The notes beneath the pieces were generated by a model, which did not search any database, was not told the DNA's origin, and saw only the letters and a list, made by a program, of their open reading frames with translations. Made by a program: the position numbers and the translations under genes. DNA of 64,000 bases, taken from Cryobacterium sp. PH31-O1. GTDB lineage: Bacteria; Actinomycetota; Actinomycetes; Actinomycetales; Microbacteriaceae. Below are positions 7,671-60,557 of this stretch, in pieces. How positions within the stretch are numbered: the first letter of the stretch is position 1; the number at the start of each line of letters is the position of its first letter. The DNA is taken from the NCBI RefSeq assembly GCF_030063455.1, contig NZ_JASITB010000002.1, forward strand, positions 186,001-250,000. Direction: 5' to 3'.

Positions 7671-7704
7671 AGAAGGGCCCCGGCCGAAGCCGGGGCCCTT
7701 CAAC
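7671..7704. terminator. Bidirectional terminator between convergent livF and livJ
   Basis: A 12-bp perfect GC-rich stem pairs 7673-7684 with 7689-7700 around a four-base loop, CGAA on plus and thus TTCG on the minus transcript, a very stable tetraloop. It lies 22 bases downstream of the livJ stop on the minus strand and backs up the livF terminator on the plus strand. Confidence 0.8.
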
Positions 7705-20665: not shown

Positions 20666-21622
20666 ATGTCCGAACCGGTGCTGACCCCTGTAATGAACGG
20701 TCACCGCACCCCTTTTGTTGAGCTCGATCGAGCCGACTGGGCGGCGCTTGCACCGACCACCCTGCTGCCGCTCAAAGAGACCGAGATCGTGCAGTTGCGC
20801 GGCCTCGGCGAGCCGCTCGACATCAACGAGGTGAAGGATGTCTACCTTCCGCTCAGTCGGCTGCTCAACCTCTACGCGGCGAACGCCCGCACCCTGCACC
20901 GTGCGACGAGTAGTTTTCTGGGTGAACGCGCCCGCCCCACCCCCTTTGTAATCGGTGTGGCCGGCTCGGTCGCGGTCGGCAAATCGACCACCGCCCGGCT
21001 GCTGCGCGAGATGCTTGCCCGCTGGGAGGACACTCCCCGGGTCGAACTCGTCACGACCGATGGTTTTCTGTTTCCCAATGCCGAGCTGAACCGTCGCGGT
21101 CTGATGGAACGCAAGGGATTTCCCGAGTCGTACGACCGGCGCGCCCTGCTGCGATTCGTCAGTGCGGTTAAGAGCGGCGCCCCCGAGGTACGGTCACCGT
21201 TCTACTCGCACTTGAGCTACGACATCGTGCCTGACGCGCAGATCGTGGTACGGCAACCCGACATTCTCATCGTCGAGGGTCTCAACGTGCTGCAGCCGCC
21301 CGGCCCTGGCCATGGACTCTCGGTCAGTGATCTGTTCGACTTCACCATCTATGTCGATGCCCGCACCCAGGACATCGCCCGCTGGTATGAAGAACGCTTT
21401 CTCAAGCTGCAACGGGGGGCCTTTGCCAATCCCAACTCGTTCTTTCACCGTTACGCCGCGTTGACCGAGGATGAGGCCCGCGCCAAGGCGCGCACCATCT
21501 GGACCAGCATCAATCAGCCCAACCTGCTGCAGAACATTCGTCCCACCCGGTCGCGCGCGACCCTCGTGCTGCGCAAAAACCCCACGCACGCCGTCTCGAC
21601 GGTGCTGCTGCGCAAGGTCTGA
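20666..21622 (+). CDS. coaA: Type I pantothenate kinase
   Basis: CoaA phosphorylates pantothenate, the first step of coenzyme A synthesis. The protein has 318 residues when started at the ATG at 20666, which has GGGGGA just upstream; an ATG at 20630 would overlap glmS and adds no family sequence. The P-loop is [10 protein letters not shown] at residues 99-108, followed by [11 protein letters not shown] and [33 protein letters not shown] and the end [17 protein letters not shown] are also characteristic. It is divergent from glmS and convergent with glmM; palindromic repeats fill the 147-bp gap after it. Confidence 0.96.
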
Positions 21623-21646
21623 CCCCCGCGCACGTACGCACTCTGC

Positions 21647-21718
21647 GGACGGGGCCCGGGCCCGGACCCCGGGCCCAGTTTATAAACTGGGCCCACGGAC
21701 GGGGCCCGGGCCCCGTCC
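21647..21718. repeat. GGGCCC-rich composite palindromic element (copy at coaA/glmM)
   Basis: Three linked blocks are present. A partial copy of the GGACGGGGCCC block is at 21647-21663. A perfect 24-bp palindrome at 21671-21694 has arms GGGCCCAGTTTA. A perfect 22-bp palindrome at 21697-21718 has arms GGACGGGGCCC. The 24-bp palindrome is identical to 57056-57079 and the 22-bp one to 57032-57053. It lies between convergent coaA and glmM and may terminate both. Confidence 0.85.
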
Positions 21719-21721
21719 GGT

Positions 21722-21769: not shown

Positions 21770-23131
21770 CTAGCGGGTTAGGCGGGCACGCACTACGTCG
21801 GCCAGGGAGTGCGCCAGCCGGTCGGCAGTGGGCTGGTCGGCGGCTTCCACCATCACCCGCACCATCGGCTCGGTGCCGGAAGGGCGCAGCAGCACCCGGC
21901 CGGTGTCACCAAGTTCGGTTTCTGCGGCGATAACAGCCTCGGCGATGACCGCGTCGGCACCGAGCGCCTTGTGGTCAACGCCCCGCACGTTCACGAGAAT
22001 CTGCGGATACACCGTCATAACGGATGCCAGTTCGGCGAGCGTCTTACCCGTGCGCGCCATTTCGGCGACGAGATGCAACCCGGTGAGGATGCCGTCGCCG
22101 GTCGTGGCGAACTTGGTCATGATCACGTGGCCGCTCTGCTCGCCGCCGAGGGAATACCCGTGGGCGTTGAGCTCTTCGAGCACGTAACGGTCGCCGACCT
22201 TGGTCTGCACCATGGTGATGTCGTTGGCCGCCATGGCCTTGCGCAAGCCGAGGTTGCTCATGACGGTCGCCACGAGCGTGCGGTCCTTGAGAACACCGCG
22301 TTCGGCCATCGACACGGCCAGAATGGCCATGATCTGGTCGCCGTCAACGATGTTGCCGTCGCCGTCCACCGCGAGACAGCGGTCGGCATCGCCGTCGTGG
22401 GCGATGCCGATGTCGGCGCCGTGCTCAAGCACGGCTTTGGCGAGGTTGTCGAGGTGGGTCGAACCCACGCCGTCGTTGATGTTGAGACCGTCGGGGTCGG
22501 CGCCAATCACGGTGAGGCGAGCACCGGCATCCGTGAACACCTGCGGTGAGACACCGGCAGCGGCACCGTGGGCGCAGTCGAGCACGACGTGGATGCCGTC
22601 GAGGCGGTGAGGCAGGGTCGTGAGCAGGTGCACAACGTAACGGTCTTCGGCGTCGGCAAAGCGACGGATGCGTCCGACGTCGCCGGCGATCGGCATCAGC
22701 GTGTCACGACCGATGTAGGACTCGATGCGGTCCTCGACGTCGTCGGGAAGTTTGGTTCCGCCAAAGGCGAAGATCTTAATGCCGTTGTCGGGCGCAGCGT
22801 TGTGTGAGGCAGAAATCATCACACCGAAGTCGGCACCGATATCGTTGATCAAAAAGGCTGCAGCGGGGGTGGGGATGACGCCGGCGTCGAGGACGTCAAC
22901 ACCGCTGGAGGCCAGGCCGGCCGAAACGGCAGCGGTGAGGAATTCACCGGAGATTCGCGGGTCGCGAGCGACCACGGCGACGGGCCGCCGACCCTCGGCA
23001 AGACGTGCTTGGGCACGACGTCCCTTGGTCAGCACCGCGGCGCTGGCCTGGGCAAGGCTCAGGGCCAGGCCAGCCGTGAGATCACGGTTGGCCAAGCCCC
23101 GAACGCCGTCCGTGCCGAACAGACGAGTCAT
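21770..23131 (-). CDS. glmM: Phosphoglucosamine mutase
   Basis: GlmM converts glucosamine-6-phosphate to glucosamine-1-phosphate, the step after GlmS. The 453-residue alpha-D-phosphohexomutase has the opening [10 protein letters not shown], the phosphoserine motif [12 protein letters not shown] with Ser109, the metal loop DGDADR near residue 245, the sugar-binding GGEQSGHVI and the phosphate-binding [11 protein letters not shown]. The ATG is at 23129-23131. It follows rpsI by 19 bp on the same strand, an order (rplM-rpsI-glmM) common in actinobacteria, so it may read through from the ribosomal genes. Confidence 0.97.
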
Positions 23132-56630: not shown

Positions 56631-56946
56631 TAATTACTCCTTGTTATTGCTGCACGGTGACAGCTTTGTGATGGTTAGCATTCGACCTTCGTCTTTCGAC
56701 TGAGGTCGAGTTCATCTGGACCCGCTTGAACTCACACGATTGCTCGTGGGAGTTTTGGTGGGTATGCCGTGGGGGCAAGGTCGAAGACCCGCCCTACATG
56801 TGTGGAATCTCGGCCTGTGCTCTCAAGAGGGCATAATTCAGGCGCACGACAAAGCGCACACCGGATAATTCTAGCCCGGCGGTGCCTGCCCGGTCAAATG
56901 GGTTGCGCCCCGCGACACCGGTGCCGACCGGCGTGCCCTTCGCCCC

Positions 56947-57005
56947 GTTCTCGTCTGCGCGCCCGGTTCTCGTCTGCGCGCCCCGGTTCTCGTCTGCGCG
57001 CCCCG
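56947..57005. repeat. Tandem 20-bp repeat, three copies
   Basis: Three head-to-tail copies of GTTCTCGTCTGCGCGCCCCG lie at 56947-56965 (one C shorter), 56966-56985 and 56986-57005. No spacers are present, so this is not a CRISPR array. Confidence 0.9.
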
Positions 57006-57043
57006 GCCTTTCGGACGGGGCCCGGCCTTTCGGACGGGGCCCG
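57006..57043. repeat. Tandem 19-bp repeat, two copies
   Basis: Two adjoining identical copies of GCCTTTCGGACGGGGCCCG (57006-57024 and 57025-57043). The second runs into the left block of the palindromic element, suggesting that slippage or local duplication copied the element's edge. Confidence 0.9.
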
Positions 57044-57101
57044 GGCCCCGTCCCTGGGCCCAGTTTATAAACTGGGCCCATGTTCATAGGGTGGGCCCGG
57101 T
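57032..57101. repeat. GGGCCC-rich palindromic element, copy 1 of direct pair
   Basis: The 22-bp palindrome (57032-57053, arms GGACGGGGCCC), two bases, then the 24-bp palindrome (57056-57079, arms GGGCCCAGTTTA), then ATGTTCATAGGGTGGGCCCG to 57101. Both palindromes recur exactly at 21671-21718, in swapped order. Confidence 0.92.
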
Positions 57102-57136
57102 GGCTTCAGCAGTCGACGCACCGCCCGTTCACGTGC

Positions 57137-57204
57137 ACGGGGCCCGGGCCCCGTCCCTGGGCCCGGTTTATAGACTGGGCCCATGTTCATAGGGTGGGCC
57201 CGGT
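57137..57204. repeat. GGGCCC-rich palindromic element, copy 2 of direct pair
   Basis: This 68-bp segment matches 57034-57101 at all but two positions; both differences fall in the TTTATA-centred palindrome (GGGCCCGGTTTATAGACTGG). It is separated from copy 1 by 35 bp of unique sequence and is in the same orientation. Confidence 0.92.
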
Positions 57205-57232: not shown

Positions 57233-57937
57233 CTAGGGATTGCGCGGCCAGAGCGGGGAGTCCAGGGTGCTCTCAAGGTCGGCGAGCAGGGCCTGCACCT
57301 GCGGCTCGACGAACTGCGCGATCGCCGCGAGCAGCCGCGGCCGCTCGCGCGTGAGCTGGGCACACACTCGAATCCCGACCTGGGTAGCGAAGTCGTCGGC
57401 GAGCTGCATTTCGGCCTTCAGGATGGCCTTCTCCTCGGGGCTGAGTGGCGGAAGCGGCTCGGCGGGTGCGAGTGGCTCGTTAACATCGGGCTTCACGGAG
57501 CGTCGGGGGGCTGGCTGCGGTTCGGGGGGCTGCTGGTCGGCGAGCTCGCTGAAGGTGAAGAGGTAGGGGGCATCCGCTGCCGGTTGGGGGTCTAGGTCGA
57601 GACCGCGAAACTCCGGGTCGAGCCCCTCGGCGGGCCGATAGGCCTGGGCGGATTCGCGCCGCTCACTCAGGTTGAGCTCGTGCGCGAGCATGGGCAGGTT
57701 TAGTTCGGTGTATTCGTCGACCGAGGCGTCGATCACAATCTTCATGCGCATCGACAGCGCATGCTGCACAACATGGGGCACGTCGACGGCCAGTCCGGCC
57801 GAGGCAATGATCGGCGATCCGAAGCACTGACGGCAGAGGCGGGACCGACCGCGGTGCGTCGCGGGGCGCCACCGGGTGATCCAACGCAGCCAGTTCTCAA
57901 CCTCGTGGTTGACGCGCGACTCGATGGACCTATCCAT
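57233..57937 (-). CDS. Uncharacterised 234-residue protein
   Basis: I do not recognise this family. It is soluble and Leu/Pro/Arg-rich, with a CxxC pair near residue 35 (RSRLCRQCFGSP). A central segment KIVIDASVDEYTELNLPMLA is followed by a Pro-rich low-complexity region (residues about 130-165). A helical C-terminal part follows (LSPEEKAILKAEMQLADDFA to FVEPQVQALLADLESTL). The ATG at 57935-57937 is the frame's first. Codon usage fits its neighbours. The single CxxC could bind metal or be redox-active, which is speculation. It lies on minus upstream of the repeats and may be a single-gene unit. Confidence 0.6.
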   Translation of the reverse strand: MDRSIESRVNHEVENWLRWITRWRPATHRGRSRLCRQCFGSPIIASAGLAVDVPHVVQHALSMRMKIVIDASVDEYTELNLPMLAHELNLSERRESAQAYRPAEGLDPEFRGLDLDPQPAADAPYLFTFSELADQQPPEPQPAPRRSVKPDVNEPLAPAEPLPPLSPEEKAILKAEMQLADDFATQVGIRVCAQLTRERPRLLAAIAQFVEPQVQALLADLESTLDSPLWPRNP

Positions 57938-58483: not shown

Positions 58484-58565
58484 GGCTCCAGCGTAGGCCA
58501 GCGCGGGGCAGCGCGGATGCTCCGGCCCGGCCTGACCGACGCCGCTGACGTCGGCGTCGGTTGGC

Positions 58566-58652
58566 GGGCCCGGGGACGGGGCCCAGGCCCCGTCCCCGTC
58601 CCCGGGCCCAGGTTCTATCATGGGCCCGCGTTCCGGGCCCGGGCCCCGTCCG
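58566..58652. repeat. Degenerate GGGCCC-rich palindromic element
   Basis: A 26-bp palindrome (58572-58597; arms GGGGACGGGGCC) is followed by GGGCCCAGGTTCTATCATGG (58604 on), a decayed relative of the 24-bp palindrome, and a final CGGGCCCGGGCCCCGTCCG. It is related to the copies at 21.6 and 57.0 kb, with the centre altered. The final block can pair with GGACGG just beyond it. Confidence 0.75.
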
Positions 58653-58683: not shown

Positions 58684-58713
58684 AAGCCCCGACTGCCGAG
58701 GCAGCCGGGGCTT
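58684..58713 (-). terminator. Terminator after the gene at 58749
   Basis: A stem AAGCCCCG-A-CTGCC/GCAG-C-CGGGGCTT closes around a GAG loop. It lies 36 bp past the stop of the minus gene ending at 58749, and a run of seven T appears on minus shortly after (58653-58659 on plus as A). Confidence 0.8.
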
Positions 58714-58748: not shown

Positions 58749-59810
58749 TTAGGGGCGGGTGAGGTGCGGGCCGTCGGCGAGCAGGCGCTCGTACTCGGTG
58801 CGCGCCTCGAGGTTCTTAGCAGTGACGCGGCGTCCGCGGCGGGCGATCCAGGCTCCGGCCCAGATCGGTACCTCCCGGGCGATGAGCCCGGCGGCGATCG
58901 CCCCGGGGTTCAGCCACAGGGTGCTGACGATGCGGCTGAGTTCGCCCGGGCTGAGTCCGTCGGACCGGCCGTCGAGGACGAGGCCGAGCATGGCCGCGCC
59001 GATGTAGGACAAGTAGACGACGACGGCGACGAGGAATCCGAACAGTACGTAGGCCCACCAACCGCCCCGGTTGACCAGGGCGATCAGGGCGCTGTAGGCC
59101 AGAAAGAAGAAGATGACCGGAATGTAGAACACCGGCAGCGCGGCGAACTCGGTGAACCCGTTGACGGTGTCAGCTACGGTCGTGCTCGTCACACCGATGA
59201 TGATGAACGCCGCAACAGCGTAGAGCACCGCAAAGACGACCGTGGCGAGCAGCGCGATCAGAATGCCGCCGCCCCGGTTGCTGCGGTCCTTTGGCTTGGT
59301 GGGCGCCTGCACATAAATGGGCGACTGGGCTGACGGGGTGTAGGCCGGGGTGGTCTCCACCGGCACGTCAGGGGTGTACGCGCCGGATGCAGCGTCAGCG
59401 GCAGCCGTGGTCTCCACGACGCGCGCCTCCGGCACAATCTGTACGACCGGCTCCGAGTCGAAAGCCGTGCTCGTGGCAGGAACCGTCTCGGCCGGAGCAT
59501 AGGAATCGGCGTAGTCATCGGCGAGGCTCGGCGCGTCGGCATCAGCAGGCGCAACCGGGGCGGCCGTCGACATGGGCGCGAGGTTGCGGGCCGCTTCCGA
59601 GGCGGTCGCGGCATCCGCGCGCTCAGCCGCGCTCAGGTTGGCGTTGATGGCGTCATAGTCGATGACGATGGGCTCCGGCACAACCGGCGCGGACGGCGCG
59701 GCGTGCTCGCCCTGACCGCTGGAACCGTGCTCGGCCGGGCTCAAATCGGGCGCTGCGGCAGCATCCGTTTCAGGGTTCTTCTTGCCGTCGGTGGGCGTGT
59801 TGTCGCTCAT
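58749..59810 (-). CDS. Membrane protein with long low-complexity N-terminal region, function unknown
   Basis: This 353-residue protein is of unknown function. Residues 1-170 are a disordered-looking Ala/Pro/Glu/Thr/Asp-rich region starting MSDNTPTDGKKNPETDAAAA. Four or so helices follow from residue 180 (GGGILIALLATVVFAVLYAV, ALPVFYIPVIFFFLAYSALI, and YVLFGFLVAVVVYLSYIGAA). The end is a cytoplasmic tail (RRGRRVTAKNLEARTEYERL). The ATG is at 59808-59810 with GGAG upstream. It lies 87 bp downstream of pilO on the same strand, but no functional link to pili is visible. Confidence 0.75.
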   Translation of the reverse strand: MSDNTPTDGKKNPETDAAAAPDLSPAEHGSSGQGEHAAPSAPVVPEPIVIDYDAINANLSAAERADAATASEAARNLAPMSTAAPVAPADADAPSLADDYADSYAPAETVPATSTAFDSEPVVQIVPEARVVETTAAADAASGAYTPDVPVETTPAYTPSAQSPIYVQAPTKPKDRSNRGGGILIALLATVVFAVLYAVAAFIIIGVTSTTVADTVNGFTEFAALPVFYIPVIFFFLAYSALIALVNRGGWWAYVLFGFLVAVVVYLSYIGAAMLGLVLDGRSDGLSPGELSRIVSTLWLNPGAIAAGLIAREVPIWAGAWIARRGRRVTAKNLEARTEYERLLADGPHLTRP

Positions 59811-59897: not shown

Positions 59898-60557
59898 TTA
59901 TCCAGCGGATGCCGGCGCCGCTGCCACGAGCGAATACACCAGCCCGGAGACGGTCGCGTTCACCAGGCCAGGCAGCCCGGGCGCTGCAACGGAGTCGAGG
60001 CCACTGACCAGGAACAATCGGCTTCCGGATTGCAGACGGGAGACGAAGTCGAGCACCTCGGCATAGCTGCCCGTCACGGTGACCTGCAGCGGGAAGGCAG
60101 CAAAGTTGGCCGCGGTGACCGCTGTCGTGACCGCCGGCGTCGCTACAACCGCAGTTGGAACCGCCGCTGGAACCGCCGCAGCCTCAATTGGCACCTCCGC
60201 CGGAAGGACCGACGAGTACGCCACCGCCTCGGTCACGGTCATTCCGGTCAGGGTGAGGCCGGCGGCAAAGGCCTCGGCGTCGAGCTGGTCGACCAGGGCC
60301 GGCATCGCCGAGCCGCTCGGCACTGACTCGGCGAGGGCATCCGCTGTCGTGGTGAGAGCGTCGAGGTTCGCGAAGTCGTGCTTGAGGCGGCCGAGCAGGG
60401 CGACGTGCCCCTCATTCGTCGCCTGCACGGCGATGCGACTCGCGTTGGCCGCGTTCATGGTCTCGAGCTGCGGCTGAATTCCAAGCAGAACGCCGAGCAC
60501 GACAATGACACTCGTCACTAGCGCCGAGCCGATGAGCCAGAGTTTGTTGTGATTCAT
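59898..60557 (-). CDS. pilO: Type IV pilus assembly protein PilO-like
   Basis: This is a bitopic inner-membrane component of the type IV pilus alignment complex that dimerises with PilN. The protein has 219 residues from the ATG at 60555-60557, which overlaps the pilN stop as ATGA. A single helix near the N-terminus (LWLIGSALVTSVIVVLGVLL), a coiled-coil stretch, and a ferredoxin-like domain with FPLQVTVTGSYAEVLDFVSR and LQSGSRLFLVSGLD follow, the typical PilO end. The central region carries an Ala/Val/Pro-rich insert (EAAAVPAAVPTAVVATPAVT). Assigned mainly by context and pattern. Confidence 0.85.
   Translation of the reverse strand: MNHNKLWLIGSALVTSVIVVLGVLLGIQPQLETMNAANASRIAVQATNEGHVALLGRLKHDFANLDALTTTADALAESVPSGSAMPALVDQLDAEAFAAGLTLTGMTVTEAVAYSSVLPAEVPIEAAAVPAAVPTAVVATPAVTTAVTAANFAAFPLQVTVTGSYAEVLDFVSRLQSGSRLFLVSGLDSVAAPGLPGLVNATVSGLVYSLVAAAPASAG

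Follow-up and report, generated by a model that had tools for sequence, protein, structure and literature searches.

A Cryobacterium family of REP-like hairpin elements at fixed intergenic sites, present in two forms that replace each other

In the window (the whole stretch of 64,000 nucleotides from Cryobacterium sp. PH31-O1 that was analysed), four intergenic elements are built around GGGCCC blocks:

21646..21719, no strand assigned: composite (type II) element of form A, consisting of a palindrome, the core (21671-21694) and a second palindrome
57032..57098, minus strand: type I element of form A, with its end palindrome at 57032-57053 and its core at 57056-57079
57137..57201, minus strand: second type I copy of form A, in tandem with the preceding one and with 97% identity to it, core at 57159-57182
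58566..58651, no strand assigned: composite copy, A/B hybrid, with palindromes at 58574-58595 and 58628-58651 and its core at 58604-58627 (GGGCCCAGGTTCTATCATGGGCCC)

The element at 21646..21719 is a 74-nt near-perfect inverted repeat between a coaA-like gene (20666-21622, plus strand) and a glmM-like gene (21770-23131, minus strand), whose 3' ends converge; it folds with -72.2 kcal/mol (z -9.67). The element at 57032..57098 stands downstream of a minus-strand gene (57233-57937), its distal third piece ends with GGTGGGCCC at 57098, and its folds have z values of -4.20 and -3.67, one per strand. Leading into this copy, positions 56943-57034 hold short units of 19-20 bp in tandem, first CCCGGTTCTCGTCTGCGCG and further on GGCCTTTCGGACGGGGCCC. 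The first-pass annotation had described the tandem pair as 68-bp copies at 57034-57101 and 57137-57204, and these coordinates are correct, with a mutual identity of 97%. The two further copies that it had claimed were located at 21646-21719 and 58566-58651, and the 24-mer GGGCCCAGTTTATAAACTGGGCCC is indeed the same at 21671 and 57056. The 58566 copy, which had been called decayed, is rather a composite, A-like in one half and B-like in the other. When up to 2 mismatches are allowed, GGGCCCRGTTTAT is found 9 times in the window, where 1.54 occurrences would be expected, and 0 of 100 shuffles reach this number. For GGGGCCYGGGCCCC with up to 1 mismatch, the expectation is 0.17 and the count is 12, at 6 places on both strands, and all 12 fall within the four copies.

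The elements follow a common plan. The core consists of two GGGCCC blocks 12 nt apart, and its halves pair; a short junction follows, and then an end palindrome of 22 nt, GGACGGGGCCCGGGCCCCGTCC. The palindromes that flank the core are rich in GGGCCC. In type I copies the side opposite the end palindrome bears a distal "third piece" (GGGCCCACCTTATG...); type II copies have a palindrome at each side of the core. All five copies for which RNA folding was tested are stabler than each of 200 shuffles (z -3.7 to -9.7).

The elements belong to a large family. Searches with three window copies and the core pattern yielded at least 65 copies in the 3.64 Mb genome to which the window belongs (G000, where the window starts at position 186001 of contig 10), a count that leaves out the copy C17:25, which is cut by a contig start; one of 66 matches, lying inside a gene, was dropped because it overlaps a real copy at C12:155333. 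Many more copies than those in the window thus exist, and the earlier proposal of a dispersed, REP/BIME-like intergenic family is borne out. A looser sorting of the 65 copies gives 48 of type I and 17 of type II, a stricter one 51 and 9, with 5 uncertain. That only intergenic places are used holds for all 65: none lies inside a gene called by our purpose-written gene caller, which was checked by eye on the window genes. The gaps of the 61 copies with a called gene on each side are convergent in 26 cases, tandem in 31 and divergent in 4, compared with 11, 69 and 17 among 97 background gaps of two regions (chi-square p 8e-14, although tandem copies are not independent of one another). Of 83 gene 3' ends, 63 have the core centre no more than 100 nt away, compared with 8 of 39 gene starts, and in the tandem context the copy is closer to the end of the upstream gene in 27 of 31 cases. 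Several G000 copies are found no more than 1.5 kb from contig ends (C10:501 and 642, C12:400174-400245, C13:329200, C16:1407, C17:25), and those at the end of C12 and the start of C17 may represent one place that was broken in the assembly.

The family appears to be restricted to Cryobacterium in the data that we searched. With up to 3 mismatches, the core of form A is present in 19 of 57 Cryobacterium genomes, with at least 13 forward matches in 12 of these 19, and the core of form B is also present in 19 of the 57. A generic core pattern was found in 3 of 398 Microbacteriaceae genomes; all 3 are among the 10 Cryobacterium genomes sampled, and the 388 other genomes of the family contain none. 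In the genome_contigs collection, which may omit records of or near the window's own genome, an exact core variant is present in 31 stretches, all from Cryobacterium. Carriage by viruses was considered and rejected, as the exact form-A core occurs in 0 viral contig stretches. The first-pass annotation knew of no described family with this core. We likewise found none in Rfam, whose models have 0 matches to the window when gathering scores are applied, or among the literature matches listed; Cryobacterium does not occur among these, which does not prove its absence from print.

The places occupied by the family were followed along syntenic stretches in two regions of G000, the surroundings of coaA-glmM (region 1, 124 kb, compared with 14 relatives) and a contig 11 cluster of copies (region 2, 60 kb, compared with 13). 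Together (184 kb) they contain 97 gaps of at least 60 nt, of which 8 hold copies in G000. These 8 gaps are filled in 64 of 75 comparisons with relatives, a figure that includes weak matches (39-46 bits) and palindrome-only cases. Occupancy is 9/12, 5/7 and 6/6 for gaps 55, 101 and 103 of region 1, and 10/11, 11/11, 11/11, 11/13 and 1/4 for gaps 8, 13, 14, 24 and 36 of region 2. A single palindrome or a remnant accounts for four of the matches, one at gap 103 and three of the nine at gap 55, which is the coaA-glmM gap. The gap of the 57032 element is filled in 5 of 7 compared relatives, and that of the 58566 copy contains a related copy in each of the 6 relatives compared, with the 22-bp palindrome alone left in one of these. 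The other 89 gaps gave one weak match only, at gap 39 of region 1 in G030, a genome without the family. Some core matches, at gaps 39, 62, 63 and 74 of region 1, turned out to be unrelated hairpins. Orientation is identical in 62 of 62 copies across the six gaps with type I copies and is undefined in the other two, where the composite copies are symmetric; at the 57034/57137 pair, 8 of 8 copies share one orientation. This gap holds a single copy in the compared carriers G011, G034, G035 and G053, and two copies of different form in G020. Two gaps of region 2 are filled in some species only: gap 36 has copies in G000 and G020 and none in G038, G053 and G048, and gap 7 (55 nt in G000) has copies in G035 and G019 only. 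A comparison of occupied and empty versions of gap 36 met with divergence too great for insertion borders. Gaps 7 and 36 thus show gain or loss; otherwise the copies of the compared regions occupy inherited, fixed positions immediately behind genes and do not seem to move freely. In four stretches, L157 (G015), L165 (G050), L166 (G026) and L167 (G033), the coaA-glmM gap contains another repeat, with CTCGACCAGCG and GGTCTCGAGACGCTCGC motifs.

Family members come in two forms. Form A has the core AGTTTATAAACT and GRCC/GGAC junctions, form B has the core ATGATNNATCAT, GGAA/TTCC junctions and an end with GGAAA or GGTC. Whole-genome A/B counts, based on forward matches with up to 3 mismatches each, so that hybrids may count twice, identify A-rich genomes (G000 62/5, G006 55/3, G011 63/9, G053 47/1), mixed genomes (G020 32/25, G035 31/24, G029 22/19) and B-rich genomes (G015 7/61, G048 8/52, G019 14/42). 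Further counts are 36/1 in G034, 38/1 in G038, 13/3 in G027 and 13/0 in G026, and 1/76 in G050, 2/17 in G037 and 0/9 in G046. In a FastTree phylogeny of 72 concatenated genes from regions 1 and 2, from which G050, G026 and G046 were left out, the B-rich G015, G048 and G019 are separated by A-rich species: the sister of G015 is G000 plus G020, that of G048 is G011, that of G019 is G037, and that of the mixed G029 is G053. On this tree, at least 13 form switches are needed over 9 sites, at least 4 of them at gap 13 of region 2. Agreement of form across sites within a species is 0.79 against 0.62 expected, a value reached in 0 of 5000 permutations that ignore the relatedness of the species. A and B therefore replace each other at shared places, in concert within a genome and repeatedly across lineages. 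About a dozen of 168 distinct copies, including the 58566 copy of the window, are hybrids with one half of each form, and in G020 A and B copies are adjacent in two gaps. In stretch L098 of genome G012, four identical GGGCGCAGTTTCTATACTGCGCCC matches lie around position 1500 on the minus strand; the one inspected lies in a long perfect inverted repeat and may belong to another hairpin family.

Copies at different gaps of the same genome are more similar than under label permutation (0.801 vs 0.761, 0/2000, again ignoring relatedness), and this excess is due to the two forms. General concerted evolution inside form A had been expected and was not found. Within this form, orthologous copies have an identity of 0.896, compared with 0.847 between different sites, and form A alone gives no clear concerted signal, as same-genome copies at different sites are 0.853 identical against a null value of 0.848 (204 of 2000 permutations); with five species, 50 of 2000 permutations reach the observed value.

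The replacement can be followed site by site between G015 and G000. Stretches of G015, chosen from the listed form-B matches, contain 45 copies, namely 39 of form B, 5 of form A and 1 undecided. For 26 of the 39 B copies, both flanks match the flanks of a form-A copy in G000 (with a tolerance of 700 nt), and these 26 correspond to 24 distinct G000 copies. Of the others, 2 have a match on one flank, 3 have flanks that match G000 without a copy there, and 8 match no G000 stretch among those compared; 11 of the 39 lack a form-A partner in the compared G000 DNA. Even the spacing of tandem copies can be similar, since the G000 pair C11:333191/333338 (147) corresponds to a B pair in G015 with a spacing of 141. 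Nine A/B pairs were aligned, and in several of them the flanks reach the element on the third-piece side. An ungapped comparison of 21 A/B pairs shows how far site identity extends. It is kept by the distal third piece (0.869 vs 0.797, 0/1000 shuffles) and by the outer flank next to it (0.389 vs 0.292, 0/1000), and weakly by the proximal part (9/1000). It is absent, in the same 21 pairs, from the core (152/1000), the right junction (640/1000), the end palindrome (889/1000) and the outer flank on the end-palindrome side (185/1000). One border of the exchanged tract therefore lies inside the element, and only this border, on the third-piece side, can be placed.

The GGGCCC framework is common to the two forms, and most base pairs are retained between them. 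Among the 168 distinct copies, core pairs 1, 2, 4 and 5 are nearly invariant (98-99%), and Watson-Crick pairing is found at core pairs 7-9 in 66-83% compared with 43-52% after shuffling, and at junction pair -3 in 91% compared with 55%. The evidence for conserved pairing is mostly the A/B contrast: in G000 alone, two variable pairs adjacent to the core covary weakly, with 219 and 156 of 2000 shuffles reaching the observed values.

The family resembles the REP/BIME elements of Escherichia coli and Pseudomonas in being made up of short, multi-copy intergenic palindromes, mostly near gene 3' ends, and in the broad sense of the term both the palindromes and the 3'-end preference are found. It differs from them in its GGGCCC framework, in the lack of a tag conserved between forms, in the lack of a RAYT in 57 genomes, and in having two whole-family forms that swap at fixed sites. 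Gene conversion was reportedly proposed to play a part in REP/BIME evolution by Higgins et al. in 1988. MITEs are short, non-autonomous inverted-repeat elements with many copies; in contrast to them, the Cryobacterium sites show no mobility in the compared regions beyond two gaps. REPINs are described as intergenic inverted-repeat hairpin units of about 70-110 nt that persist within genomes and are duplicated by RAYTs (PMC3116915, PMC8049555). The Cryobacterium elements are likewise persistent intergenic hairpin units of this size range, but the 57 genomes have no match to a Y1 transposase, and the positions are common to species. For the CGTC-tagged REPs, PMC3733652 describes an unpaired tag, an apparent lack of a dedicated transposase and an occurrence in Proteobacteria, Chlorobi, Bacteroidetes, Spirochaetes and Thermotogae. 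Form A contains CGTC as well, yet in a paired arm (folds of 57032-57103 and 21646-21719), and the motif is missing from the form-B consensus, so that neither an unpaired GTAG nor an unpaired CGTC end tag is present. The elements are best read as a Cryobacterium-specific family of REP-like hairpin elements.

Several explanations for the exchange of forms have to be weighed. A REPIN- or MITE-like mobile element, with a transposase that inserts the current form at hot spots behind genes while old copies are lost, would agree with the varying copy number between species, with gaps 36 and 7 of region 2, with the frequent tandem pairs and with the A copies beside B copies in two G020 gaps, which make insertion of a neighbour followed by deletion possible. 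We nevertheless consider it unlikely. The same gaps are filled in 64 of 75 comparisons, with the same orientation where it is defined, and in A/B pairs one flank and the third piece remain specific to their site. Mobilisation by a RAYT or Y1 transposase, as the first-pass annotation had suggested, did not hold up: PF01797, the one transposase family searched, has 0 matches in G000 and in all 57 Cryobacterium genomes (a search control matched in 5 of 14 genomes), and the positions are common to species instead of scattered. The adjacent A and B copies in G020 and the tandem pairs of several species could also be remnants of an ancestral A+B tandem at most sites, from which lineages lost one form or the other. 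This is highly improbable. Where a gap has two copies, both are A in G000 and both are B in G015 or G048, at much the same spacing, and if one form had disappeared from dozens of sites throughout a genome, that too would call for a concerted cause. Alternatively, the sites might mutate to follow the exchange of a DNA- or RNA-binding protein with two specificities. The nearly invariant GGGCCC framework (core pairs 1, 2, 4 and 5), the concordance of forms within species and the two sharply different consensus sequences are what such selection by a trans-acting factor would predict. Against it, dozens of sites would need many base changes each between relatives as close as those compared (flanks about 89-92% identical in single-flank matches, 94% for the query gene), and intermediates are few, with hybrids making up about a dozen of 168 copies. 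We know of no trans-acting factor for the A/B hairpins, and regard this explanation as quite improbable.

The elements could also be ordinary GC-rich, repeated bidirectional terminators, with A and B arising by drift of a non-coding hairpin. The location fits, as the copies follow stop codons and are in excess between convergent genes (43% of the copies), and the folds are stable. The U-tract expected of a terminator is absent: just beyond the end palindrome, a few positions are rich in A where T-rich sequence would be required, and no T-rich stretch follows the 65 copies on either side. Of the earlier suggestion of a bidirectional terminator, the placement therefore stands and the expected tail does not. 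A terminator scan marked nothing inside the copies at 57032-57201 and 58566-58651. In the region scanned it found 2 sites, against 1.2 expected from shuffles, and the following hairpin comes before the 58566 copy:

58684..58713, minus strand: ordinary terminator-like hairpin, located between the 58566 copy and the stop codon of the minus-strand gene 58749-59810; its tail is T-rich

This hairpin argues, weakly on its own, against the 58566 element as the terminator there. Moreover, near-identity of sequence at 65 places is more than terminators require, and drift would not yield two discrete forms that are concordant within genomes. Overall, ordinary terminators are a very unlikely explanation.

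Ordinary jumping of repeats does not explain a different version at the same places. From the fixed sites, the two forms, their concordance within genomes, the recurrent switches and the retained third piece, we infer copying in place that resembles gene conversion. The reading that we prefer, and to which we give about an even chance, is that REP-like 3'-end hairpins at fixed sites are rewritten by such gene-conversion-like copying and are kept for a use at gene 3' ends. An extruded hairpin element might, for instance, break, and the broken site might be repaired with another copy of the family as template, so that one form would be copied over the other in situ. Copies would be retained because the hairpin is useful at transcript 3' ends, through end protection or attenuation. 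Cleavage of extruded hairpins by SbcCD in E. coli is described in PMC3733652. A and B have in common only the short GGGCCC blocks, which are poor substrates for ordinary homologous recombination. Any role, for example at the mRNA 3' end, as a terminator or as a protein site, is putative. More tentatively, the data may hint at an unrecognised Cryobacterium copy-over system, in which around 60 fixed loci are rewritten site by site without transposition by a form-specific enzyme or binding protein. It is just as tentative to see in this a concerted-evolution or drive process that spares the distal piece and its flank.

It is a long-standing question whether transposition spreads REP-type repeats or gene conversion homogenises them. 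The combination of no known REP transposase, fixed orthologous sites and two discrete forms makes this question testable, since scoring sites as A or B across species and strains would tell copying in place from insertion and from loss. If copying is confirmed, bacteria are able to rewrite regulatory hairpins at dozens of dispersed places in concert.

Two other repeats or hairpins of the window may be mentioned. At 7676-7699, a hairpin with GGGCCCCGGCCGAAGCCGGGGCCC lies between convergent genes, and a related hairpin is present in most relatives compared; it resembles an ordinary terminator stem and stands outside the GGGCCC family. The octamer GCGGATGC has 32 occurrences in the window, where 7.0 would be expected, and 0 of 100 shuffles attain that number; its places include 204-211, 58513-58520 and 59905-59912, and it also recurs beside several elements of the GGGCCC family.
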